A stretch of DNA of 64,000 nucleotides, taken from assembly GCA_001802125.1 (NCBI GenBank), contig MGZK01000135.1, positions 1-64,000 on the forward strand, given 5' to 3'. The DNA comes from Geobacteraceae bacterium GWC2_55_20. GTDB taxonomy: Bacteria > Desulfobacterota > Desulfuromonadia > Geobacterales > Pseudopelobacteraceae. Within the stretch, counting starts at the first letter, position 1. Every line of letters starts with the position of its first letter. The notes beneath the pieces are model-generated. The model saw only the letters and a program-made list of their open reading frames with translations. It searched no databases and was not told where the DNA came from. Both the position numbers and the translations under genes were made by a program. Below, piece by piece: positions 9,312 through 49,320 of the stretch.

Positions 9312-10676
9312 TCACCGCATGCATTGGAACACTCCGGCGCACCAGAGGCAGGCGCCGCAGGGCACACTCCTGATGTGGCAATCCTGTTCGAACTCCTCGG
9401 CCTGCACATAGTCGCAAGGCGCCAGGCCGCAACTGGCGCAGGAGGGATAATCATAGGCCAGCACGTCGCCGCGGAACGACCTGAATTGCGGGCTGTTCCA
9501 GATTTCCAGCAGATCCTGCCGCTGCAGATTGCCGAACACTCTGGGTTTGACGATCTGGTTCCAGCCGCTGGCATAACAGTCGTAACGATGCCACAGGAAA
9601 TAGCAGGGGGACACATCTCCGTTCCATGAAACAAACGCGCTCCCCTCCTCGACAAAGCTGCATTTGCGCTGTTCCCTGAGGGCGATCTCGGGCAGACGCA
9701 GATCCAGACCGGTTTTTTCGGCGATCTCTTTTGCCGCCGAAAAGATGGCGGCGGTTTCTTCCAGATGTTCATGTTCCAATGCCAGCAGTTTCTTCATGTC
9801 CAACATGATCCCCTGCCGCTCCGCCTCGGACTTCATCGCCTCGATCGTATCCACGACCGCCTGTTCGTCGGCTGTCCGCGAGTATTTCCAGCGCACTTCC
9901 GGATAGCGGTTGATATCGACCCCCGCCCCGGCGGCCTTTGCGCGCCATGCAGAGTAGAGCGCCAGCGCCTGATCGCTGACATTGCAGAAGATCGCCTCGC
10001 CGGCATGCTGCCTGTCGTATGGCAATACATGGGTGACAATGGCGAATCTCGCTCCCCGCCTGGCGGCCCATTCGAGTGTTGCCGGAAGTTCAGCGATATT
10101 GTTGCGCATTGCTACAAATTCGACACCGAGTTTCACATCAGGACGACCACATTGCTTCATGGCGGATTGCAGAGAGGACAAGGCCCGATCGACTGACTCC
10201 ACCTCCCCCCCTTCGCGAAGCTTTTTGAACTGTTCCGGCTCAATCGCGTCTATGGACAGGCAGACACGGTCCAGTCCGGAATCAACCAGGGAAATGGCGC
10301 GCAGATTAGTCATCAGCACACCATTGGACTGGAAACCGATCCAGCCGGCCGCCGGCATCAGCTTCCTGGCCCTCTGGATGTACGATTCCAGATACGGATT
10401 CATGAGCGGCTCGCCGATGCCATTCAGGATCAGCGCTCCAAGGCCGGGAAGAGCCGGTTCAAGGCGCGAGAACAGTTCCGGAGAGAAATCGCCCTCGCAG
10501 ACCTCGCTGCCACGGTTCTGCTTGACACACATCAGGCAGTTGAGGTTGCAGCGGGTGGTTGTCTCCACGAACAGCTTGGCGGGATGATCCGCCAAGGCAG
10601 CGCCACCTGCTTCCGTTCCATGGACGGTTTCAATCAAATCCGCCTGATTCACGTTAATTTTCACCGCTCGCCTCAA
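9312..10676 (-). CDS. Radical SAM/SPASM domain protein, putative metalloenzyme maturase type
   Basis: ETTTRCNLNCLMCVKQ (CxxxCxxC) radical SAM motif; Cys-rich C-terminus CSFVEEGSAFVSWNGDVSPCYFLWHRYDC...CASCGLAPCDY...CHIRSVPCGACLWCAGVFQC. Confidence 0.85.
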   Translation of the reverse strand: MRRAVKINVNQADLIETVHGTEAGGAALADHPAKLFVETTTRCNLNCLMCVKQNRGSEVCEGDFSPELFSRLEPALPGLGALILNGIGEPLMNPYLESYIQRARKLMPAAGWIGFQSNGVLMTNLRAISLVDSGLDRVCLSIDAIEPEQFKKLREGGEVESVDRALSSLQSAMKQCGRPDVKLGVEFVAMRNNIAELPATLEWAARRGARFAIVTHVLPYDRQHAGEAIFCNVSDQALALYSAWRAKAAGAGVDINRYPEVRWKYSRTADEQAVVDTIEAMKSEAERQGIMLDMKKLLALEHEHLEETAAIFSAAKEIAEKTGLDLRLPEIALREQRKCSFVEEGSAFVSWNGDVSPCYFLWHRYDCYASGWNQIVKPRVFGNLQRQDLLEIWNSPQFRSFRGDVLAYDYPSCASCGLAPCDYVQAEEFEQDCHIRSVPCGACLWCAGVFQCMR

Positions 10677-36999: not shown

Positions 37000-37079
37000 A
37001 GTAAATGTATACATTTTCCACGTCGAGCCCCCACATCAGCGTGGATTAAGAAAAGATGTTCAACCAGGAAAGGTATGTA

Positions 37080-38246
37080 ATGGAAAAACATCCGGACAAT
37101 ACATTGCATAATTACAAATTCGAGGTGCCTGAAATCATTTTCGGCAGGGGCATGCTGAGCCAGGTCGGCGCCTGCGCCCGCAGACTTGGAGGCAAGAAAG
37201 TCTTTCTGGTCAGCGACAAGGGACTTTTTCACGCCGGATGGGTCGATCAGGCGATGCGGAGCCTGCTTGATGCCGGCCTTGAATTTGTCTACTACGACGG
37301 CATCACCCCCAATCCCAAGGATCACGAGATCGAGGGGGGGGTCAGGGAGTATCATCGACACGGCACGGATGTGATTGTCGGCCTGGGCGGCGGCAGCTCG
37401 ATGGATGCCGCCAAGGCGATCGCCATTTTGGTATCAAACGGTGGAAGAATCAGCGATTACGAGGGGCCGGACCGAATCATCCGCCCACTGCCACCGCTGG
37501 TACTCTGCCCGACCACCTGCGGCACCGGTTCTGACGTCTCCCAGTTTGCAATCATCAGTGACACCGAACACCTCCGAAAAATCTGCATCATGAGCCGCTG
37601 CGTAGCTCCCGACATCAGCCTGACCGACCCCAATACGCTGGCCACCCTGCCGGACGAGTTTGTCGGCACAACCGCGACCGATGCCCTCAGCCACGCAATG
37701 GAAGCCTTCTTTTCGATCGCCTCCACCACCCTCACCGATGTCCACGCCATCAAGGCGCTGCGCCTTTTGTCCAGCAGCTTGTCAAACGCCGTTCACGAAC
37801 GCAAGCCGGATGACATGGAGAATCTGGCACGGGCCAGTCTGCATGCCGGCATGGCCTTTTCCAACTCGATGCTGGGCATAGTCCACGCACTGGCTCACCC
37901 GATCGGCGGCCTGTACGACGCAAACCATGGCAGCATCAACGCGATTCTGCTGCCCGAAGTAATCCGCTACGACATCCCGGTCGTAACCGAAAAACTCCAG
38001 GAACTGGCTTGGGGACTCGGGCACCGCGCCAACGGAGACATCAGCGCCGCCAACGAGAAGATCCAGGAAACACTGGATTCGCTGCTGGAAGCGAGCGGCG
38101 CCCCGCGCAGCCTGCGCAGCATCGGAGTCCTGCGCAAGGACCTTCCGGAACTGGCGCGCCAGGCGCTCAAGGACGTCTGCCTGGTGACCTCGCCACGTGA
38201 AGCCGACGAAGAAGACCTGCTGCGCATCCTGGAGAGGTCCTATTGA
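37080..38246 (+). CDS. Iron-containing alcohol dehydrogenase
   Basis: IVGLGGGSSMDAAKAIAI, CGTGSDVSQFAIIS, MLGIVHALAHPIGGLYDANHGSINAILLPEV. Confidence 0.93.
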   Translation: MEKHPDNTLHNYKFEVPEIIFGRGMLSQVGACARRLGGKKVFLVSDKGLFHAGWVDQAMRSLLDAGLEFVYYDGITPNPKDHEIEGGVREYHRHGTDVIVGLGGGSSMDAAKAIAILVSNGGRISDYEGPDRIIRPLPPLVLCPTTCGTGSDVSQFAIISDTEHLRKICIMSRCVAPDISLTDPNTLATLPDEFVGTTATDALSHAMEAFFSIASTTLTDVHAIKALRLLSSSLSNAVHERKPDDMENLARASLHAGMAFSNSMLGIVHALAHPIGGLYDANHGSINAILLPEVIRYDIPVVTEKLQELAWGLGHRANGDISAANEKIQETLDSLLEASGAPRSLRSIGVLRKDLPELARQALKDVCLVTSPREADEEDLLRILERSY

Positions 38247-39463
38247 TGAACAAGCTTGCCGTCCGGACAAAGATGGATGAATCATCGCTTGAACGACTGC
38301 TCGGGCTCGACAATTCCAAAATCGGCTTCTATGGCGAGGTCAAACAAAAAATCCAGGAACTGGAGGCCGCTAACCTGGGTTTGCGCAGCAAAGGCAACGA
38401 ACTGCAGGCCATGTTTGACTCCATCGGCGATGGAGTGGTCGTCTACGACCACCATGGCATTGTACAGCACCGCAACCATGTCTGCCCGAAGCTCTTCCCC
38501 CAGGAAACCTTGCCCGGATGTTCATGCCGTGAACTGTTTCACCCCGAGCAGGAATCAGCCCCGCTGCAATGCCCGGTGGAACGGGCTCTGACCGGCGAAC
38601 GGGTGGAGATCTCCTTTACGTCCCAACAATCAAAGGAGAAGATCCGTTACTTTGATGTAACGGCAACTCCGATAGAAGATGTTCACGGCGATATGAACCG
38701 CGCGCTGGTGTTCCTGCGGGATGTGACCGAAAAACGGCTTCAGGAACTTCATCTGATGCAGACCGAGAAGCTCTCCAGCATCGGAATCCTGGCGGCCGGC
38801 GTTGCCCACGAGATAAACAATCCGCTCTCATCGGTGGCCGGATATGCCGAGGCGTTGCTCAGGCGCATGAATGAGGATGAATCGCTGCTTGAAGACCCGC
38901 GCCTGGATGCTTTCCCCAAGTATCTCCAGGTAATAATCCGCGAATCTTACCGCTGCAAAGGCATCATCGACTGCCTGTTATCTTTCAGCCGCAAGTCGGA
39001 TGGCTCTGTCAGCAATGTAAACATCAACGACATACTCAAGGAGGTTCTGGAACTGGTTCGATACAAGTCCCGCTATGAGAAGATCGATATCCAGTTGAAT
39101 CTGCAGAACGATCTTCCCGATGTCGTCGGCGATCCATCCGGCTTGCGACAGGTCTGCATGAACCTGCTGATCAACGCGCATCAAGCAATAAATGGCGCCG
39201 GAGTAGTGGAAATTTCCACCAGCACCAACGAGCAGTCAATGGTACTCTTTCAGATCAGGGATACCGGCAGCGGCATCTCCAGGGAAGCCATCGACCAGAT
39301 CTGGGATCCGTTTTTTACGACCAAAGAGGTCGGACAGGGCCTTGGACTGGGATTGGCGGTCACATACAACATAGTGAAACGTCATGGCGGCGATATCACG
39401 GTGGAAAGTCAAAGGGGCAAAGGATCAAAATTCACGGTAAGGATGCCTGCATGTCAAAAATAG
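38246..39463 (+). CDS. PAS sensor histidine kinase
   Basis: PAS domain with HVCP/SCRELFHPE/QCPVE motif; AAGVAHEINNPLSSVAGYAEALL H-box; GLGLGLAVTYNIVKRHGG. Start overlaps the adh stop (TGATG). Confidence 0.92.
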   Translation: MNKLAVRTKMDESSLERLLGLDNSKIGFYGEVKQKIQELEAANLGLRSKGNELQAMFDSIGDGVVVYDHHGIVQHRNHVCPKLFPQETLPGCSCRELFHPEQESAPLQCPVERALTGERVEISFTSQQSKEKIRYFDVTATPIEDVHGDMNRALVFLRDVTEKRLQELHLMQTEKLSSIGILAAGVAHEINNPLSSVAGYAEALLRRMNEDESLLEDPRLDAFPKYLQVIIRESYRCKGIIDCLLSFSRKSDGSVSNVNINDILKEVLELVRYKSRYEKIDIQLNLQNDLPDVVGDPSGLRQVCMNLLINAHQAINGAGVVEISTSTNEQSMVLFQIRDTGSGISREAIDQIWDPFFTTKEVGQGLGLGLAVTYNIVKRHGGDITVESQRGKGSKFTVRMPACQK

Positions 39464-40836
39464 TCCGTAATGACACAAAAGTACTGATCGTCGAGGACGA
39501 CAAGTCCCTGCGCGAGTTGCTGCAGATGGAACTGACCCGTTCCGGATACAAGGTAACCGCCACGGCCAGCGGCGAAGAGGGACTGGACGCCTACTGCGAG
39601 GAGATCTTCAACGTGGTTCTTCAGGACATTCGCATGCCGGGCATGGATGGGGTTGAAGCCCTCAAACTGATGCGCGCGGAGTCAAATATCCCCGAAGTCA
39701 TCATGTTCACCGGCCACGGTACCATCGAAACCGCGGTGGAATGCATCAAACATGGCGCCTATGACTACCTTACCAAACCGGTAAAGCTGGATGAACTGGA
39801 GCTTTTGATTGACAAGGCCTGCGAAAAGAACCGTCTGCGGCTTGAAAACATCAACCTGAAGAAAGAGATGAAACGCTTTGAAAATCACCGTATCATCGGC
39901 AAGAGCCAGGCGATTCAGAAAGTCCTGGATACGGTTCAGCGCTGGGGAATGACCGACGAACATGTACTGATCACCGGTGAGAGCGGTACCGGCAAGGAGT
40001 TGATTGCCAGGGCCGTACATGATGCCAGCAACCGGGCCAGCAAACCGTTTGTAACCGTCAACTGCGGCAGATTCGACGCCAACACCGCCGAAAGCGAGCT
40101 GTTCGGGCATATGCAGGGAGCCTACACCGGAGCCAACAAGGGGCGCGCGGGACTTTTCGAACTGGCAGACACAGGAACACTGTTCATGGATGAGGTTTCG
40201 GAGATGCCGCTGGACGTGCAGGTAAAACTCCTGCGGATCCTGGAAACCAGCACTTTCCGCCGCATGGGAGGTAACCACGATATCCGCGTAAACGTCCGTT
40301 TCGTCTTTGCTTCAAACAAGATCCTGGCCGACTGCGTCAACCGCGGCGAATTCCGCGAAGACCTCTACCATCGCATAAACCTGCTGCCGATCCCGGTCCC
40401 CCCCTTGCGGCAGCGCACCGACGACATCCTTCCGCTGGCCTGGTTTTTTATCCGGCAATGTAATGAGAATGACTCTCGAAACTGGGAAATCACCGATGAG
40501 GCTATGGCTTCGCTCTGCGCCTACCAGTGGCCCGGCAATGTCAGGGAACTGCGCAACACCATTCGCAGAGCTTGCATCCTGGCCAATGAACCGATCATCA
40601 CCCCGGACCTGTTTCCATTTTCTCCCCCCAAGGCAAGCTATACACCGTCGACAAGCATATCCAATGCGGAAGTCACAACACCCTTTACACCCGCTCCGCT
40701 CTGGGCCGTTGAGCGCGAACACATCGAAAAAGTTCTCAAGCTGGTGGATCAGAACAAGAGTCGCGCCGCAAAACTGCTCGAAATTGACCGCAAGACTCTT
40801 TACACCAAGTTGGAACGATATGGCCTTGAAAGCTGA
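39451..40836 (+). CDS. NtrC-family sigma54 response regulator
   Basis: REC domain VLIVEDDKSLRELL...; GESGTGKELIARAVH; GAYTGANKGRAGLFELADTGTLFMDEVSEMPLDVQVKLLRIL; C-terminal Fis HTH NKSRAAKLLEIDRKTLYTKLERYGL. Confidence 0.95.
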   Translation: MSKIVRNDTKVLIVEDDKSLRELLQMELTRSGYKVTATASGEEGLDAYCEEIFNVVLQDIRMPGMDGVEALKLMRAESNIPEVIMFTGHGTIETAVECIKHGAYDYLTKPVKLDELELLIDKACEKNRLRLENINLKKEMKRFENHRIIGKSQAIQKVLDTVQRWGMTDEHVLITGESGTGKELIARAVHDASNRASKPFVTVNCGRFDANTAESELFGHMQGAYTGANKGRAGLFELADTGTLFMDEVSEMPLDVQVKLLRILETSTFRRMGGNHDIRVNVRFVFASNKILADCVNRGEFREDLYHRINLLPIPVPPLRQRTDDILPLAWFFIRQCNENDSRNWEITDEAMASLCAYQWPGNVRELRNTIRRACILANEPIITPDLFPFSPPKASYTPSTSISNAEVTTPFTPAPLWAVEREHIEKVLKLVDQNKSRAAKLLEIDRKTLYTKLERYGLES

Positions 40837-41806: not shown

Positions 41807-41822
41807 TGGCATTCAACTTGCT
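41807..41822 (+). promoter_or_regulatory. Sigma54 promoter of the adh-moxR-coxE cluster
   Basis: TGGCATTCAACTTGCT (GG-N10-GC; full TTGC at -12). Confidence 0.75.
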
Positions 41823-42029
41823 AAACAGTAAATCATAAAGCGGTTATGGGCCATGACACAGATTCGATCGGCCCCTTGGCAGTAGATAAAGAGATTTATA
41901 AGAACGAAGTTTTGAGGAGGTGGCATTCAAAAAAATCTAAAGTATGGCAAGTTGTAGCGACGGCAGTAATGTATAACTCATTTAATGGAGCAGCACCAAA
42001 AACAAACACCCAAAAAGGAGGAAGTACCC

Positions 42030-43235
42030 ATGTCTCACAACAAAGATGTCAAACGGACCCTTAAGAATGAAAGACTGGAATACCCGATCAAGATGATGCA
42101 CGCCTATCCTTCCGTAAATGTCGGTTGGGGCGCACATACAATGGTTGGCAACGATGCCAGGGCTCTGGGTATGACTAATGCCCTGATCGTAACCACCGGC
42201 CTTCGCGGAACCGGCATTGTAGAGACCATCCAGGGCGTACTGAAAGCTGCTGGTGTTGCTTCCGAAGTATTTGACAAAGTAACCCCCAACCCGAAAGACC
42301 ATGAAGTAATGGCTGGCGCAAAAGTGCTGGCAGCCGGCAAGTTCGACGGCATCATCAGCCTCGGCGGCGGCAGCTCCCATGACGCCTGCAAGGCCATCAA
42401 ACTGGTTCACAGCCATGACGGCCAGGATGTACGCAGCTTCGAAGGCGCTTTCAAGGCAACCAAGGCCAATACGATCCCCCAGCTCGCCATCAACACCACA
42501 TCGGGAACCGGCTCGGAAGTTTCCTGCTTCTCGATCATCAACCATACTGACAAGAAGTACAAAATGGCACTGTTCGATCCGAACTGCACACCCAGCAAAT
42601 CGGTCAATGACCCGCTGATCCATCAGTGCATGCCTGGCGACCTGGCCGGCTACACAGGAATGGACGCACTGGCACATGGCGTGGAAGCAATCGCCTCCCG
42701 CCTGGGTGTTGTCTCCGCTTACGGCCCCGGCCTGAGCGCAATCTCCCTGATCTTCGGCAACCTGCGTCAATCGGCAATGAACAGGAATAACGACAAAGCC
42801 GTTGAGGCAATGGTCTGGGCCGAAATGGCAGCCGCCTACAGCTTCAACAGCGCCGGCCTCGGCCTGATTCACAGTATGGCACACGCCCTGGGCGGCATGT
42901 ATGATGCACCCCACGGACTCTGCAACGCCATCGGCCTCGGTCCGGTCATGACATTCAACCTGCCTGCTTGCCCTGAGCGCTTCAAGATGATGGCACAAGC
43001 AGCCGGTATCGATACAAACGGCATGTCCGACATGAAAGCTGGTCAAGCATTTATTGACGCTTGTCTGGAACTGAAAGCCGATCTGGGCATCACCAAGACC
43101 TTCACCGATCTGGGTCTGCTTGAAAAAGACGTCGAAGGTCTGTCACGCTTCTCGGTAAACGATATCTGCACCGAAGGCAACCCGACCGATACCGGCCTGC
43201 AGGACATGATCGGCATCTTCAAGCAGTGCATGTAA
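42030..43235 (+). CDS. Iron-containing alcohol dehydrogenase, NDMA-dependent methanol dehydrogenase (MNO/MDO, nicotinoprotein)-like
   Basis: Start at 42030 with AAAGGAGGAAG RBS. TTGLRGTGIVE, NPKDHEVM, IISLGGGSSHDACKA, NTTSGTGSEVS, GLIHSMAHALGGMYDAPHGLCNAIGLGPV, EGNPTDT. Confidence 0.88.
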   Translation: MSHNKDVKRTLKNERLEYPIKMMHAYPSVNVGWGAHTMVGNDARALGMTNALIVTTGLRGTGIVETIQGVLKAAGVASEVFDKVTPNPKDHEVMAGAKVLAAGKFDGIISLGGGSSHDACKAIKLVHSHDGQDVRSFEGAFKATKANTIPQLAINTTSGTGSEVSCFSIINHTDKKYKMALFDPNCTPSKSVNDPLIHQCMPGDLAGYTGMDALAHGVEAIASRLGVVSAYGPGLSAISLIFGNLRQSAMNRNNDKAVEAMVWAEMAAAYSFNSAGLGLIHSMAHALGGMYDAPHGLCNAIGLGPVMTFNLPACPERFKMMAQAAGIDTNGMSDMKAGQAFIDACLELKADLGITKTFTDLGLLEKDVEGLSRFSVNDICTEGNPTDTGLQDMIGIFKQCM

Positions 43236-43384: not shown

Positions 43385-44287
43385 ATGATTACCGAACAAG
43401 GGGTTAAGGACTTTCTCAAGACAGGTGGCTACATTGCCGATGACGCCATCGCCACCGCAGTTTTCCTGGCCCTCCGCATGGAAAAGCCGATCCTGATCGA
43501 AGGCCCTCCCGGCGTGGGAAAAACCGGGCTGGCCAAGGCGCTTTCTTCGGCACTTGATTTTCCGCTGGTGCGTTTGCAGTGCTACGAAGGGATCGACGAG
43601 GGCAAGGCGCTCTATGACTGGGAATACGGCAAACAACTGCTCTATACCCAACTCCTGCGTACCCAGCTTGACAATTACCTCTCGGTCTCAGCCGACCTGC
43701 GAGAAGCTGTCGAACGGCTTTCCGCCGAGGAAAGCCTGTTTTTCTCCAGAAATTTCCTGGTGCAACGACCGATCCTGCGCAGCTTCCTCTCGGAAAAGCG
43801 TTCTCTGCTGCTGATCGACGAGATCGACCGTTCCGATGACGAATTCGAGGCACTGCTGCTGGAGTGCCTGAGCGACTTCCAGGTCTCGATCCCCGAACTG
43901 GGAGTGATCGAAGCCAAAAGAAAACCGCTGACTATCCTGACTAGCAACGGCACCCGGATGATCTCCGATGCGTTGCGCCGACGCTGCCTGTATCTGTACA
44001 TCGGCTATCCGGAGTTGGAACGGGAAGTGGCAATCGTCAGGATAAAGTTCCCTGAGATCTGTGACACGCTGGCGCGTCAGATGGTGGAATTCCTGCGCAA
44101 GGCCCGCGAACTGAACCTGCGTAAGCCCCCAAGTGTTTCTGAAACACTTGATTGGGCCCAGGTACTGTCAATCCTGAAAGCGTCCCAACTGACACCAGAG
44201 GTGGTCGCCAATACCGTAGGTGTGATCGCCAAGCACCAGACCGACCTGCAGAAGGTAAATGATCTGGCAGTGCAGGAATTGAGTTAA
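43385..44287 (+). CDS. MoxR-family AAA+ ATPase (CoxD-like)
   Basis: MEKPILIEGPPGVGKTGLAKALSSALDFPLVRLQCYEGIDEGKALYDWEYGKQLLY; Walker B LLLIDEIDRSDDEFEALLLECLSDFQVSIPELG. Confidence 0.92.
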   Translation: MITEQGVKDFLKTGGYIADDAIATAVFLALRMEKPILIEGPPGVGKTGLAKALSSALDFPLVRLQCYEGIDEGKALYDWEYGKQLLYTQLLRTQLDNYLSVSADLREAVERLSAEESLFFSRNFLVQRPILRSFLSEKRSLLLIDEIDRSDDEFEALLLECLSDFQVSIPELGVIEAKRKPLTILTSNGTRMISDALRRRCLYLYIGYPELEREVAIVRIKFPEICDTLARQMVEFLRKARELNLRKPPSVSETLDWAQVLSILKASQLTPEVVANTVGVIAKHQTDLQKVNDLAVQELS

Positions 44288-44289
44288 CC

Positions 44290-45696
44290 ATGGAACGGAT
44301 TATCGCGGGCTTCGTTTCAGCTCTTCGTGAAAGCGGTATCCGCGTTTCCCCCGGCGAAAGCCTGGATGCGGTCCAGGCCCTGGGGCTTTGTGGAATGACG
44401 GGGCGCAAGTCGTCCCGGCAACTACTGCGACTGACACTGGTGAAGAATGTCAATGACATTCCGGTATTCAACGAGGTTTTTAACCAATATTTCAGCCGCT
44501 ACAAGTTTTTCGACCCGGAAATGAATGTTCCCGAACTGATGGATGCCGCCATCGTCGATATGGAGGGGGAATTTAACTATCTAAACCAGCGCCAGGACGA
44601 CGACCACGACGAGCAGGGTCCCCTGCTCAAGCTTGACAGCGATATAAATCCGGAGGATCTGCAGGAGTTGAAAAGCCTGACCGAAATCGATCCCGACGAT
44701 TCGGACGGCAATGAAATTGTCGTACAGATGAAGGGTTATCGCGGCAAGGCAAAGGCGCCGCGGCCGACGCGTCGTTACACCCAGAACCCGCTCACGATCG
44801 AACTCAACAAAAACAACAACGCCCCGATGGGCATCACCTTTACCCATGAAGAACAGATCGCCATGCAGGATGTGGTTTCGCGCATGATGATGCGTCTGCG
44901 CAAAGACATGAAGCGGATGAAGAACAACCAGAATCGCGGCAAGCTGCACGTAATCAAAACCATCCAGAAGAATTACCGTCACGACATGGTCCCGTTCCAG
45001 GTGGCGCTACGCCGCAAACGCCGGGAGAAACCACGTCTGGTGGTACTATGCGATGTCAGTTTTTCAGTGAGTCATGCCTCCCGTTTCATGCTGCTGCTTT
45101 TGCACACGCTGCATAATCAAATGCTGGATGTACGCAGTTTCATCTTCAACCGCGAGGTGGCGGAAATCACCGAAATGCTGGCCAACATGCCGGTCAACGA
45201 TCTGATGGAAACCATCGACAAGGGCGACATCGTCGATCTGGATGCCAACAGCAGTTTCGGCCAGGTTTTCCTGGCCTTCAAGAAGAGATACCTGGAAAAC
45301 CTGCGCGGCAGACCGGCTTTCATCATCCTGGGAGACGCGCGCAACAACTACGACGAGGCCAATGACTGGGTTTTGGACGAAATCCGCGAGAAGGCACGCT
45401 ATATGCTGTGGCTGACACCGGAGGAACGCGACACCTGGAAGCGCGGAGACTGCCTGATGGAAGTATATGGCTCATATTGCGACAAGGTGGAGGTTGTGAA
45501 AACGGTCGAAGACCTCAGTCTGGTCGTCGAGGACTTGCTGCGCGACATCTATGCCGACCATGCCCATCCAATTGACAAGAAGCGTCTGCGGGAAGCCAAA
45601 GCGGCCGAAGTCTACGACTCCAGGGATTATTATACCCGTGGCTCGACCGGTGGCGGTGAAGCGGTTTTTGACCCATCAGGACGTAGCCACTGGTAA
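44290..45696 (+). CDS. CoxE-like von Willebrand factor A domain protein
   Basis: MIDAS-type LVVLCDVSFSVSHASRFMLLLLHTLHNQMLDVRSFIFNREVAEITEML; follows moxR directly. Confidence 0.88.
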   Translation: MERIIAGFVSALRESGIRVSPGESLDAVQALGLCGMTGRKSSRQLLRLTLVKNVNDIPVFNEVFNQYFSRYKFFDPEMNVPELMDAAIVDMEGEFNYLNQRQDDDHDEQGPLLKLDSDINPEDLQELKSLTEIDPDDSDGNEIVVQMKGYRGKAKAPRPTRRYTQNPLTIELNKNNNAPMGITFTHEEQIAMQDVVSRMMMRLRKDMKRMKNNQNRGKLHVIKTIQKNYRHDMVPFQVALRRKRREKPRLVVLCDVSFSVSHASRFMLLLLHTLHNQMLDVRSFIFNREVAEITEMLANMPVNDLMETIDKGDIVDLDANSSFGQVFLAFKKRYLENLRGRPAFIILGDARNNYDEANDWVLDEIREKARYMLWLTPEERDTWKRGDCLMEVYGSYCDKVEVVKTVEDLSLVVEDLLRDIYADHAHPIDKKRLREAKAAEVYDSRDYYTRGSTGGGEAVFDPSGRSHW

Positions 45697-45736: not shown

Positions 45737-45973
45737 ATGAGTTGCGACAGTAAAAACCACCAGATGCATATGTGCGCCCTCAAAAGACAGGGGCTCGACG
45801 ATTGCATCGCCAGTCTTTCAGACAATCCCACAGTCGAATGCAAACAGTGCGGCGCCATGGCAAACAGCTCAAAAAACCTGTGTGCTGCCCATTTGGGAGA
45901 TACGGCCCCCAATGTTGAAGGCGGACACGGGACCATAGGCCTTGATGAAGTCGGCAAACCACACGCAGGGTAA
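45737..45973 (+). CDS. Small cysteine-rich protein (78 aa)
   Basis: Start at 45737 with AAGGAG RBS: MSCDSKNHQMHMCALKRQGLDDCIASLSDNPTVECKQCGAMANSSKNLCAAHLGDTAPNVEGGHGTIGLDEVGKPHAG (6 Cys, including CxxC). Confidence 0.75.
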   Translation: MSCDSKNHQMHMCALKRQGLDDCIASLSDNPTVECKQCGAMANSSKNLCAAHLGDTAPNVEGGHGTIGLDEVGKPHAG

Positions 45974-46015
45974 GGACAGAAGATACTCCATCGTACAAAA
46001 CGGGAGAGCGACATC

Positions 46016-46183
46016 ATGACAGAACCGAGCGGCGTCAATCAGATTGAAGATAAGCCTGCGACGCGGAAGGCCACCGAACCTGGCAAGGAACCTGATAAAA
46101 CGGACGAGACCAAGGAAGAAGAGAACACGCAGCAGATACCCGTCAAGCAGGTACCAATGGACGGCATCTGCGGTGGCTACTGA
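46016..46183 (+). CDS. Mycofactocin-precursor-like (MftA-like) putative RiPP precursor peptide (55 aa), not in the ORF track
   Basis: MTEPSGVNQIEDKPATRKATEPGKEPDKTDETKEEENTQQIPVKQVPMDGICGGY*; RBS GGGAGAG; C-terminus resembles MftA ...VEEVSIDGMCGVY*. Confidence 0.75.
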   Translation: MTEPSGVNQIEDKPATRKATEPGKEPDKTDETKEEENTQQIPVKQVPMDGICGGY

Positions 46184-46213: not shown

Positions 46214-47323
46214 ATGAGCAGGATGCTGCTTTCGCCGGGTCGTTACGTTCAGGGTGCCGGCGCCATCAGGGAAATTGGTCTGCACGCGTCACGAATCGGA
46301 ACGTGTGCCCTGGTTATCGGAGGAAAGACCGCTCTGACACTGTGCGGTGAGGAAATACGGGCAAGTCTCGCACAAAAAGAGATCCCCTGTTACCAGGAAT
46401 GCTTTCAGGGGGTCTCATCTCAACTGGAGATCAGGCGGCTTACCGGAATTGCGGCTGCAAACAGGGCCGACATGATCATTGCTCTGGGTGGAGGTGCCTC
46501 AATTGACGCCGGCAAAGCGGTTTCACATGAGATGAAAGTGCCGGTCATTGTCATACCGACCGTTATCTCTACCGACGCCCCCTGTTCGGCTCTGTCAGTA
46601 ATTTACAGCGAAGCGGGAGTATTTGAACGTTACCTGTTTTTGAGAAAAAACCCGGATTGCGTTCTGGTTGATACGAATTTGGTGGCGCAATCGCCGGCCA
46701 GGTTCCTGGTAGCCGGCATGGGTGATGCTTTGGCCACATTCTGGGAATCCGACACCTGTTTCAGAAGCGGAAAACCAAATCCGCTTACAGGAGGAATTCT
46801 TCCCACATTGGCGACCAGGGCACTGGCACGTCTCTGCTATGAAACTTTGCTTGAATCGGGACTTCAGGCAAAGCTGGCCGTTGAAAGAAAAGTCGTTACA
46901 CCGGCCGTTGAAGCAATTGTGGAAGCTAATACGCTGTTGAGCGGCCTAAGCTCGGAAAATGGCGGCCACGCCGGAGCACATTCGATTCATAATGGATTGA
47001 CCGCGCTGGCATCCACTAAAAATAAACTCCATGGCGAAAAAGTTGCCTTTGGAGTCATTGCCCAACTCGTACTGGAAGGCCGTCCCAAAAGCGCCATCAA
47101 GGAAGTTCAGGATTTCTGCATCAGCGTTGGACTGCCGCTCTGCCTGCAAGACCTGGACATAATCGACCCAGCGCCGGGTGACATCAGACAAGTGGCGGAA
47201 GCAACTGTCGCCGACGGCGAAACCATCCATTCAACCTGGTTTCACGTTTCCGCAGATATGGTGGAAGCCGCGATCCTGACCGCTGATGCACTCGGAACAA
47301 TCTACAAAAAGGCTATCGGGTGA
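46214..47323 (+). CDS. GldA-like (glycerol dehydrogenase type) iron-containing dehydrogenase
   Basis: RYVQGAGAIREIGLHASRIGTCALVIGGKTAL; IALGGGASIDAGKAVSHEMKVPVIVIPTVISTDAPCSALSVIYSEAGVF; GGHAGAHSIHNGLTAL; HGEKVAFGVIAQLVLE. Confidence 0.92.
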   Translation: MSRMLLSPGRYVQGAGAIREIGLHASRIGTCALVIGGKTALTLCGEEIRASLAQKEIPCYQECFQGVSSQLEIRRLTGIAAANRADMIIALGGGASIDAGKAVSHEMKVPVIVIPTVISTDAPCSALSVIYSEAGVFERYLFLRKNPDCVLVDTNLVAQSPARFLVAGMGDALATFWESDTCFRSGKPNPLTGGILPTLATRALARLCYETLLESGLQAKLAVERKVVTPAVEAIVEANTLLSGLSSENGGHAGAHSIHNGLTALASTKNKLHGEKVAFGVIAQLVLEGRPKSAIKEVQDFCISVGLPLCLQDLDIIDPAPGDIRQVAEATVADGETIHSTWFHVSADMVEAAILTADALGTIYKKAIG

Positions 47324-49320
47324 AAAGTATTTCCGCTGACAAGCCACATATTCCCATCAAGGAAAACCCGGAGCCTCACAGCACAATAGTGAACACTACC
47401 AGGCTCCTGAGAAATGCCCGCATCCGGCAAAATGAGCTGGAACTTCAGATCGAAGAGTTGCGACTCGCCAACTCGGAGCTGGAGTCATCACGGAACAAAT
47501 ACGCTCTGCTTTACGACTTTGCCCCGGTTGGATACTTCACTTTCGATAGACGGGGGGGGATCCGGACAGTCAACCTGACCGGAGCAAACCTGCTGGGGAT
47601 CGAACGCCCATTGCTGATCAACAGTTATTTTGAAAACTTCGTGGCCGAAAAGGACCGCCAGCCTTTTGCCGAGTTTTTAAGTACAGTCTTTGCTAGCCAT
47701 GACAAAATGACCTGCCGGCTGAAGCTGTCAAGAAACGACAACCGGCCAATTTTCGTGCGCATCGAGGCGATGGCTGGTGAATCCGGTGACGAATGTTATG
47801 CGGCCCTGGTGGACATTACGCAACGCAAACTGGCTGACGTGGCCCTTCGTGAGAGTGAGTACAATCTGTCCAAGGCCCAATCGATGTCACATGTAGGTTC
47901 TTGGCGGTCGGACCTTTTAACCGGTGAATTGAGAGTATCGGACGAACTGCTTCGCATCATGCGACTGAACCGGGAAGAAGCGACACAGGAAACCTTCGCA
48001 AGCCTGATTCATCCGGAAGATATGGAGTCGGTCATGGCGCATCTTCGCCTGGGCGCTGAACTTGGCAACAGCTATGAAATCGAGCATCGCCTGTTGCTCA
48101 GGGACGGAACGACCAAATGGGTCTATACGATTGTGGAACCTTCCGTCAATATCGCCAGGCAGGTTGTCAGGCTATACGGCACGACCCAGGACATAAGCGA
48201 TCGAAAACGGTCCGAGGTCCGGCTGCGAAACAAGAAAAACGAGCTGCAAACCATATTCGATTCGGTCAACGATGGCGTCATCGTCTTTGACCACAACGGG
48301 CTGATACAGAATTTCAATCACATCTGCCCGCAATTCTTCCCGGAAAAGATACTTTCTGGGAGAAGTTGCCGGGATATTTTCCATCCGGAACTGGCGGAAT
48401 CGCCGGACAGCTGTCCGGTGGAACTGGCCCTGCGCGGCGAGCGGGTGGAAACCACGCTGGTATCGCCGCAGCATGGCAACAAGATCCGCTATATCGACGT
48501 TACGGCCAACCCGATACATGACGCGTTGGGAGAGAAGACCAGGGCACTGGTCTTTTTCAGGGACGTGACACTGAAGAGGCTGCAGGAGCTGCAACTGATT
48601 CAGACCGACAAGATGTCCAGCATCGGTGTGCTGGCCACCGGCGTGGCCCATGAGATCAATAATCCGCTGACCTCGGTGGCGGGCTATGCCGAAGCCCTGT
48701 TGCGACGTTTCAGCGACGAGCCGGCTCTGCGCGAGAACAGGCTGCTGGATGTTTTTCCTAAATACCTTGAGGTCATCGTACGCGAGTCATACCAGTGCAA
48801 GAGGATCATCGGCAGTCTGTTGAATTTTGGAAGAAAGTCCAACGGTATCGTCGGCAGGGCGGAAATAAACGGAATACTGCTGGAGATTCTGGAACTTCTG
48901 CAGCATCAATCGAACTACGGAAACATTGAGGTGGTGACGAAACTTCAGGAAAACATACCGCTTATCCCATGTGATCCTTCCGAACTTCGTCAGATCTGCA
49001 TGAACCTGCTGATAAACGCCTGCCATTCCATCAAGGAAAAAGGTCTGGTTGAGATTACAACTAAACACTCCATCGACGAGCAAGCAGTTTACATACAGGT
49101 TCGCGACACCGGTTGCGGCATCGCCCAGGATGTGATCGACCGGATATGGGACCCGTTTTTCACTACCAAGGAACCGGGAAAAGGCACCGGGCTGGGACTG
49201 GCGCTGACCTACAATATTGTAAAACGGCTGGGAGGCGAAATCAGCGTCAAAAGCAACGTCGGCGCAGGTTCGCAATTTACGGTGCGTTTACCCGTATGCC
49301 ACGGGCAGGAAAGTCAGTAA
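47320..49320 (+). CDS. Multi-PAS sensor histidine kinase (paralogue of the kinase at 38246)
   Basis: GTG start overlapping the dehydrogenase stop; ATGVAHEINNPLTSVAGYAEALLRRFSDE; HICP/SCRDIFHPE/SCPVE PAS motif; GTGLGLALTYNIVKRLGG. Confidence 0.92.
   Translation: MKSISADKPHIPIKENPEPHSTIVNTTRLLRNARIRQNELELQIEELRLANSELESSRNKYALLYDFAPVGYFTFDRRGGIRTVNLTGANLLGIERPLLINSYFENFVAEKDRQPFAEFLSTVFASHDKMTCRLKLSRNDNRPIFVRIEAMAGESGDECYAALVDITQRKLADVALRESEYNLSKAQSMSHVGSWRSDLLTGELRVSDELLRIMRLNREEATQETFASLIHPEDMESVMAHLRLGAELGNSYEIEHRLLLRDGTTKWVYTIVEPSVNIARQVVRLYGTTQDISDRKRSEVRLRNKKNELQTIFDSVNDGVIVFDHNGLIQNFNHICPQFFPEKILSGRSCRDIFHPELAESPDSCPVELALRGERVETTLVSPQHGNKIRYIDVTANPIHDALGEKTRALVFFRDVTLKRLQELQLIQTDKMSSIGVLATGVAHEINNPLTSVAGYAEALLRRFSDEPALRENRLLDVFPKYLEVIVRESYQCKRIIGSLLNFGRKSNGIVGRAEINGILLEILELLQHQSNYGNIEVVTKLQENIPLIPCDPSELRQICMNLLINACHSIKEKGLVEITTKHSIDEQAVYIQVRDTGCGIAQDVIDRIWDPFFTTKEPGKGTGLGLALTYNIVKRLGGEISVKSNVGAGSQFTVRLPVCHGQESQ

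Follow-up and report, generated by a model that had tools for sequence, protein, structure and literature searches.

An MftA-like C-terminal tail on a free peptide and on unrelated proteins of a mycofactocin-linked alcohol-oxidation operon in Desulfuromonadia

The question raised by this locus is what is done by a short peptide that ends almost like MftA, the precursor of mycofactocin, and lies beside genes for alcohol oxidation. The window, the whole stretch of 64,000 nucleotides from Geobacteraceae bacterium GWC2_55_20 that was analysed, contains an open reading frame (ORF) whose 55-aa product ends in DGICGGY. An earlier note, made from the sequence alone, read this end as mycofactocin-like, with Gly in place of the core Val, and proposed an MftA-family precursor with a Gly-Tyr core. 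In mycofactocin biosynthesis, MftC, together with MftB, removes the carboxyl group from the Tyr that ends MftA (PMC5264612), and MftC then joins the Val and Tyr of this peptide, the mature redox group depending on that Val, on MftD and on release steps (PMC7491314).

The ORF at 46016-46183 (plus strand) encodes an acidic peptide, MTEPSGVNQIEDKPATRKATEPGKEPDKTDETKEEENTQQIPVKQVPMDGICGGY, followed directly by the stop codon. A ribosome-binding site, GGGAGAG (46002-46008, plus strand), is located 7 nt before the ATG, and the upstream sequence is preserved in three orthologues. A protein search over 76 family genomes identified these orthologues in the same genus, with the same length and 76-85% identity, together with ten further genomes that match only the last 18-35 residues. 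The orthologues show no indel; pN is 0.08-0.20 in the leader and 0.00 in the last 15 residues, and pS is 0.1-0.2. In these last 15 residues synonymous changes are present and amino-acid changes are zero, while the leader drifts; the last 16 residues, QIPVKQVPMDGICGGY (46133-46183 with the stop codon, plus strand), are the same in four species. The peptide has no match to any Pfam or NCBIfam family in a profile search. A chance ORF is ruled out by the orthologues, the constraint on the tail and the C-terminus statistics given below, and the ORF is genuine. The note's description of an ORF with an RBS is borne out by the translation, the conserved GGGAGAG and the orthologues, all three of which keep unchanged the C-terminus that it had proposed to compare.

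The genes around the ORF, all on the plus strand, are arranged in the order Fe-alcohol dehydrogenase, MadB-like, MadC-like, Cys/His-rich, tail peptide, glycerol-dehydrogenase-like and histidine kinase. The best NCBIfam match of the iron-containing alcohol dehydrogenase (41985-43235) is TIGR04266, NDMA-dependent methanol dehydrogenase, at 307 bits, under the cut-off of 625; its true start is likely at 42030 (MSHNKDV), as in orthologues. A sigma-54-like -24/-12 site 5' of this gene, TGGCATTCAACTTGC (41807-41821), is a candidate by consensus match only; promoter-like matches of the sigma-54 type number 10 in the window, against 3.8 expected. Profile searches identify a MadB-like AAA+ (MoxR-type) ATPase (43385-44287) and a MadC-like VWA (CoxE-type) protein (44290-45696), the latter upstream of the gene for a 78-aa Cys/His-rich protein (CYSR, 45737-45973). 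This protein has zero Pfam or NCBIfam matches and its homologues bear the tail in 13 other loci; an AlphaFold model of a tail-bearing Cys/His-rich protein has a mean pLDDT of 58, too poor for a fold search. The tail gene is followed by that of a glycerol-dehydrogenase-type Fe/Zn dehydrogenase (46214-47323), which adjoins it in many loci and is missing in some, and by a PAS sensor histidine kinase (47320-49320), identified by profile search and the last of the cassette. Upstream lies a set of an ErcA-like Fe-ADH, a histidine kinase and a sigma-54 response regulator (37056-40836), and this regulatory set recurs 5' of the madBC cassette in relatives.

The end of the peptide recurs on other proteins. 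A DNA motif search over the class Desulfuromonadia and the protein search found it in 23 of 277 genomes, and inspection of the region downstream of madC added ten genomes with variant tails, for a total of 33 genomes and 34 loci with the consensus [E/Q]Ixx[K/R/Q]x[V/I/L]PxDGxCG[G/A]Y-stop; the motif searches require the terminal Tyr, and the protein search of the 76 family genomes alone is free of that condition. Four kinds of carrier are encountered: the 78-aa Cys/His-rich protein (13 loci), thiol peroxidase (12), an M24-peptidase-like protein (4) and the free acidic peptide (5). NCBIfam assigns the peroxidase at 217 bits against a cut-off of 123, and in an alignment with a thiol peroxidase of solved structure the tail falls past the normal C-terminus; the M24-peptidase-like carrier is a weak match to M24 enzymes. 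Two of the 12 tail-bearing peroxidases are broken: in G079 (L204) the gene has collapsed, with most of the peroxidase lost and the tail frame still there with Arg for Cys, and in G209 (L161) the frame shifts. Each locus has a single tail, which ends exactly at the stop codon on every carrier, and where it is on a separate gene the adjacent Cys/His-rich protein is tail-less. Position -2 is Gly in most tails, Ala in some and Val in none; the variant ends found downstream of madC include CGAY, and the penultimate Ala occurs in G080, G143, G264 and G265. Cys-4 is replaced by Arg in two tails (G079 and G182), and D-7 is absent from a few tails of relatives. At least 12 changes of state among the four carrier kinds are indicated by the MadC tree, which has long branches and open forks. 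As the carrier ahead of the tail is interchangeable, selection keeps the tail itself. The earlier note was right about the ORF but missed the same tail on larger proteins of relatives.

The tail is located 3' of madC, at a distance of 344-2766 bp, in every locus in which both were seen. The Cys/His-rich gene is present in 32 of 33 tail loci as against 5 of 22 tail-less ones (Fisher p 6e-9, a guide only, because the loci are related by descent), and 22 of the 55 MadBC loci examined have no tail. In a scan of 84,980 species no counterpart of the tail and the Cys/His-rich gene was found outside Desulfuromonadia, and matches outside Desulfuromonadia-type genomes were judged from their context to be chance. 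A plasmid search found none, and the tail is unreported in the open-access literature searched.

The resemblance to MftA lies at the C-terminus. Set against the true MftA C-termini of these loci, the tail outscores practically all of 16,724 background C-termini even when only columns 1-10 of the 16 are counted, and over the full 16 residues its likeness to the CGVY-ending MftA encoded in the same genomes is far greater than chance would give. Common to both are I-15, G-6, C-4, G-3 and Y-1, with D-7 nearly always. The differences are consistent: Glu at -12 in MftA becomes Lys, Arg or Gln in the tail (mostly Lys), Ala at -9 becomes Pro in 17 of 18 tabulated, and Val at -2 becomes Gly in the tabulated set, or Gly or Ala once the variant tails are added. 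The end of the window peptide agrees with DGxCG-x-Y with a free terminal Tyr, and Val at -2 is absent from it. The note's suggestion of a mycofactocin-like C-terminus is therefore upheld by comparison with MftA. Neither of the NCBIfam MftA models, TIGR03969 (25 bits) and NF040489 (30 bits), accepts the peptide, so that the HMM search that the note had proposed went against it; the best tail peptide reaches 10 bits (E 0.85), as against 44 and 48 bits for the true MftA of a relative. In most tail genomes a true mftA, ending in DGICGVY, is a separate gene adjoining mftB-mftC, and the tail gene adjoins madBC and not mftB-mftC. By these tests the peptide lies outside the MftA family as NCBIfam defines it, and is best called an MftA-like tail. 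Of the MftA-family precursor with a Gly-Tyr core, the MftA-like end stands, but the family assignment is not supported, given the models and the separate true MftA; the Gly-Tyr core as stated also lacks support, as the penultimate residue may be Ala and complete folded proteins, thiol peroxidase among them, carry the same tail. What 46016-46183 encodes is a C-terminal tail in free-peptide form, which is descended from MftA or shares ancestry with it. The tail belongs to an operon for mycofactocin-linked oxidation of alcohols (Fe-alcohol dehydrogenase, madB, madC, Cys/His-rich protein and tail bearer), and we hold with high confidence that it is a real MftA-like module of that operon.

Genomes with the tail mostly contain mycofactocin genes. 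A near-full MftC is found in 20 of the 23 tail genomes from motif or protein search (Fisher p ~1e-15 against the 277 genomes), a co-occurrence partly confounded because MadBC itself tracks mycofactocin: MadC is found in 61 and MftC in 58 of the 277 genomes, largely the same ones, and many genomes with mycofactocin and MadBC carry no tail. Two more of the 23 have partial evidence, namely the window's genome (truncated mftC and MftF) and G002 (MftA). Over all 33 tail genomes, MftC is found in 27 and partial evidence in 2; mftC was not detected in the draft genomes G035 (66% complete), G143 (86%), G183 (92%) and G151 (97% complete, 8% contaminated). Most of the genomes compared are drafts, and these absences may be assembly gaps. 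In the window's genome, mftC is cut off by the end of contig C30, and OYE_2, ETF-like genes and MftF follow it. MftF and OYE_2 score over cut-off; mftA and mftB were not found in this genome, in which the contig is cut within mftC, and the near relative G036 has both MftB and MftC. The cut mftC, MftF and OYE_2 rule out that the window's genome is without mycofactocin. A search of the genome for Mft homologues, as the earlier note had suggested, thus recovered MftF and the truncated mftC and not MftB; an MftC homologue and orthologues with a conserved end, the lack of which it had held to speak against its reading, are both present. The 15 genomes tested have one MftB each, adjoining mftC, so no second MftB was found that could be a dedicated reader of the tail. 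MftE over cut-off is absent from 13 genomes tested (G000, which is the window's genome, G036, G011 and ten others) despite their mycofactocin genes, so that dependence on MftE is rejected and the cofactor may be freed by a different peptidase in this class.

The reading we rank first, tentatively, is that the tail is recognised by MftB/MftC and loses the carboxylate of its Tyr, with no cross-link to Val. The sequences show the tail at the free C-terminus of its carrier, where MftB/MftC would bind it; since the similarity covers the part of MftA that is discarded in maturation, its reader, MftB/MftC, would be the likeliest partner, to which the co-occurrence also points. From its known chemistry, MftC would then strip the carboxylate from the terminal Tyr. 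As Gly has no C-beta, the second MftC reaction should, by established chemistry, be impossible on a tail with Gly at -2, in agreement with the earlier note; with Ala there it would differ. The carrier would thus be left with an end that is modified but not cross-linked, possibly an enamide that hydrolysis could turn into an amide, and would act as partner of both the Cys/His-rich protein and the dehydrogenase that MadBC services. Homology, co-occurrence, the single MftB, the swapping of carriers and the constraint on the tail appear to favour decarboxylation. The consistent differences at -12, -9 and -2 could mean another reader, and the Arg-for-Cys tails, the tails with no detected mftC and the tail-less genomes with MadBC and mycofactocin seem to count against it. 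Somewhat less assured still is the wider proposal, that ordinary proteins, as well as a free peptide, are modified at their C-termini by the mycofactocin maturase, and that the tethered modified Tyr serves alcohol oxidation while its carrier is freely exchanged.

The homology and co-occurrence would serve equally well if the tail were a copy of MftA that stays unmodified and acts in docking or as a decoy, bringing the carrier to MftB/MftC or restraining the complex; the free peptide would then be an inhibitor, and Gly or Ala at -2 would prevent cross-linking and consumption of the tail. This is the strongest competitor, less probable than decarboxylation. In its favour, every tail has Gly or Ala where MftA has Val, a change that prevents or impairs the Val cross-link; the carriers are otherwise complete proteins, and there are degenerate CRGGY-type ends. 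It is not obvious, however, why a pure docking motif should require a terminal Tyr that never varies and whose carboxylate is free, and the charge change at -12 might weaken MftB binding.

The constant position of the tail, 0.3-2.8 kb 3' of madC in every locus showing both, would also suit a handle for the MadB/MadC AAA+/VWA motor, which would act on the bearer or employ it in servicing the alcohol dehydrogenase, the MftA likeness then being one of ancestry only. Remodelling of targets and insertion of metals are known activities of MoxR/VWA pairs, from work on NorQD and CoxDE. We consider this unlikely, as 22 of the 55 MadBC loci lack the tail, the dehydrogenase of the operon itself bears none, and a free, disordered 55-aa peptide is an odd target for remodelling.

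Modification by another radical SAM enzyme is very unlikely. The candidate is an MftC-like protein (105 bits to TIGR03962, cut-off 265) that is often encoded in the same string of genes, just ahead of the alcohol dehydrogenase; it is present in 24 of the 76 family genomes (e.g. L058:4214-5326) and tracks MadC, but it adjoins MoaA and MOSC genes, fitting work on a molybdenum or tungsten cofactor, occurs also in tail-less genomes, and is encoded in the window's genome on contig C134, away from the tail locus. Two further radical SAM loci of this genome were observed: a row of a PqqD-like protein, a radical SAM/SPASM protein and a second SPASM protein, GeoRSP-like (contig C132, L001), and, in the window at 9312-10676 (minus strand), a putative radical SAM/SPASM metalloenzyme maturase (TIGR04311, 630 bits, cut-off 400). 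The GeoRSP system, an MftC-like match unlinked to the tail, is not favoured as its maturase. Least likely of all is the original proposal of an MftA-family RiPP precursor releasing a new Gly-Tyr-derived redox cofactor: it fits the MftA homology and the C-terminal Gly-Tyr and is not required by the data, and against it are the same tail joined to intact enzymes, a core that may be Ala-Tyr, the dependence of the mycofactocin redox group on Val, MftD and release (PMC7491314), and the 13 genomes with no MftE over cut-off.

If decarboxylation or docking by MftB/MftC holds, the tail would be a second substrate or ligand of the mycofactocin machinery, placed on normal proteins and swapped between carriers, and the idea of a cofactor-precursor peptide would widen to that of a C-terminal protein tag. 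We know of one substrate of mycofactocin biosynthesis, MftA. Occurrence of the tail on unrelated proteins suggests that the mycofactocin peptide motif has a second use, so far undescribed, and the tails may serve as a natural Val-to-Gly/Ala test of the two-step reaction of MftC. They also offer a first handle on the use of mycofactocin by the Mad operon in anaerobic metal reducers in which no mftE was found.

Among known systems, MftA is similar in its C-terminal motif of about 16 residues behind a variable N-terminal part, and in genomes that mostly contain MftB/MftC; the tails differ in residing on larger proteins, away from mftB/mftC and below the NCBIfam cut-offs. RiPP precursors with large N-terminal parts are known in the nitrile-hydratase-like and Nif11-like leader peptides (PMC3023750), which likewise have a short modifiable end after a larger N-terminal part, whereas the carriers of the tail are unrelated, otherwise normal and interchangeable proteins, conservation residing in the MftA-like end itself. 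The Mad operon, of which MadA has been named in Rhodococcus jostii (PMC13210347), shares with this locus the Fe-alcohol dehydrogenase, the MadB-like AAA+ and the MadC-like VWA proteins, here found together in a mycofactocin genome, with MadC tracking MftC over the class. Measured by the NCBIfam reference models (NF047784 and NF047783 for Mad), all three proteins of the window score under the equivalog cut-offs, so the operon is related to, and not identical with, the type Mad members, to which this locus adds the tail and the Cys/His-rich gene.
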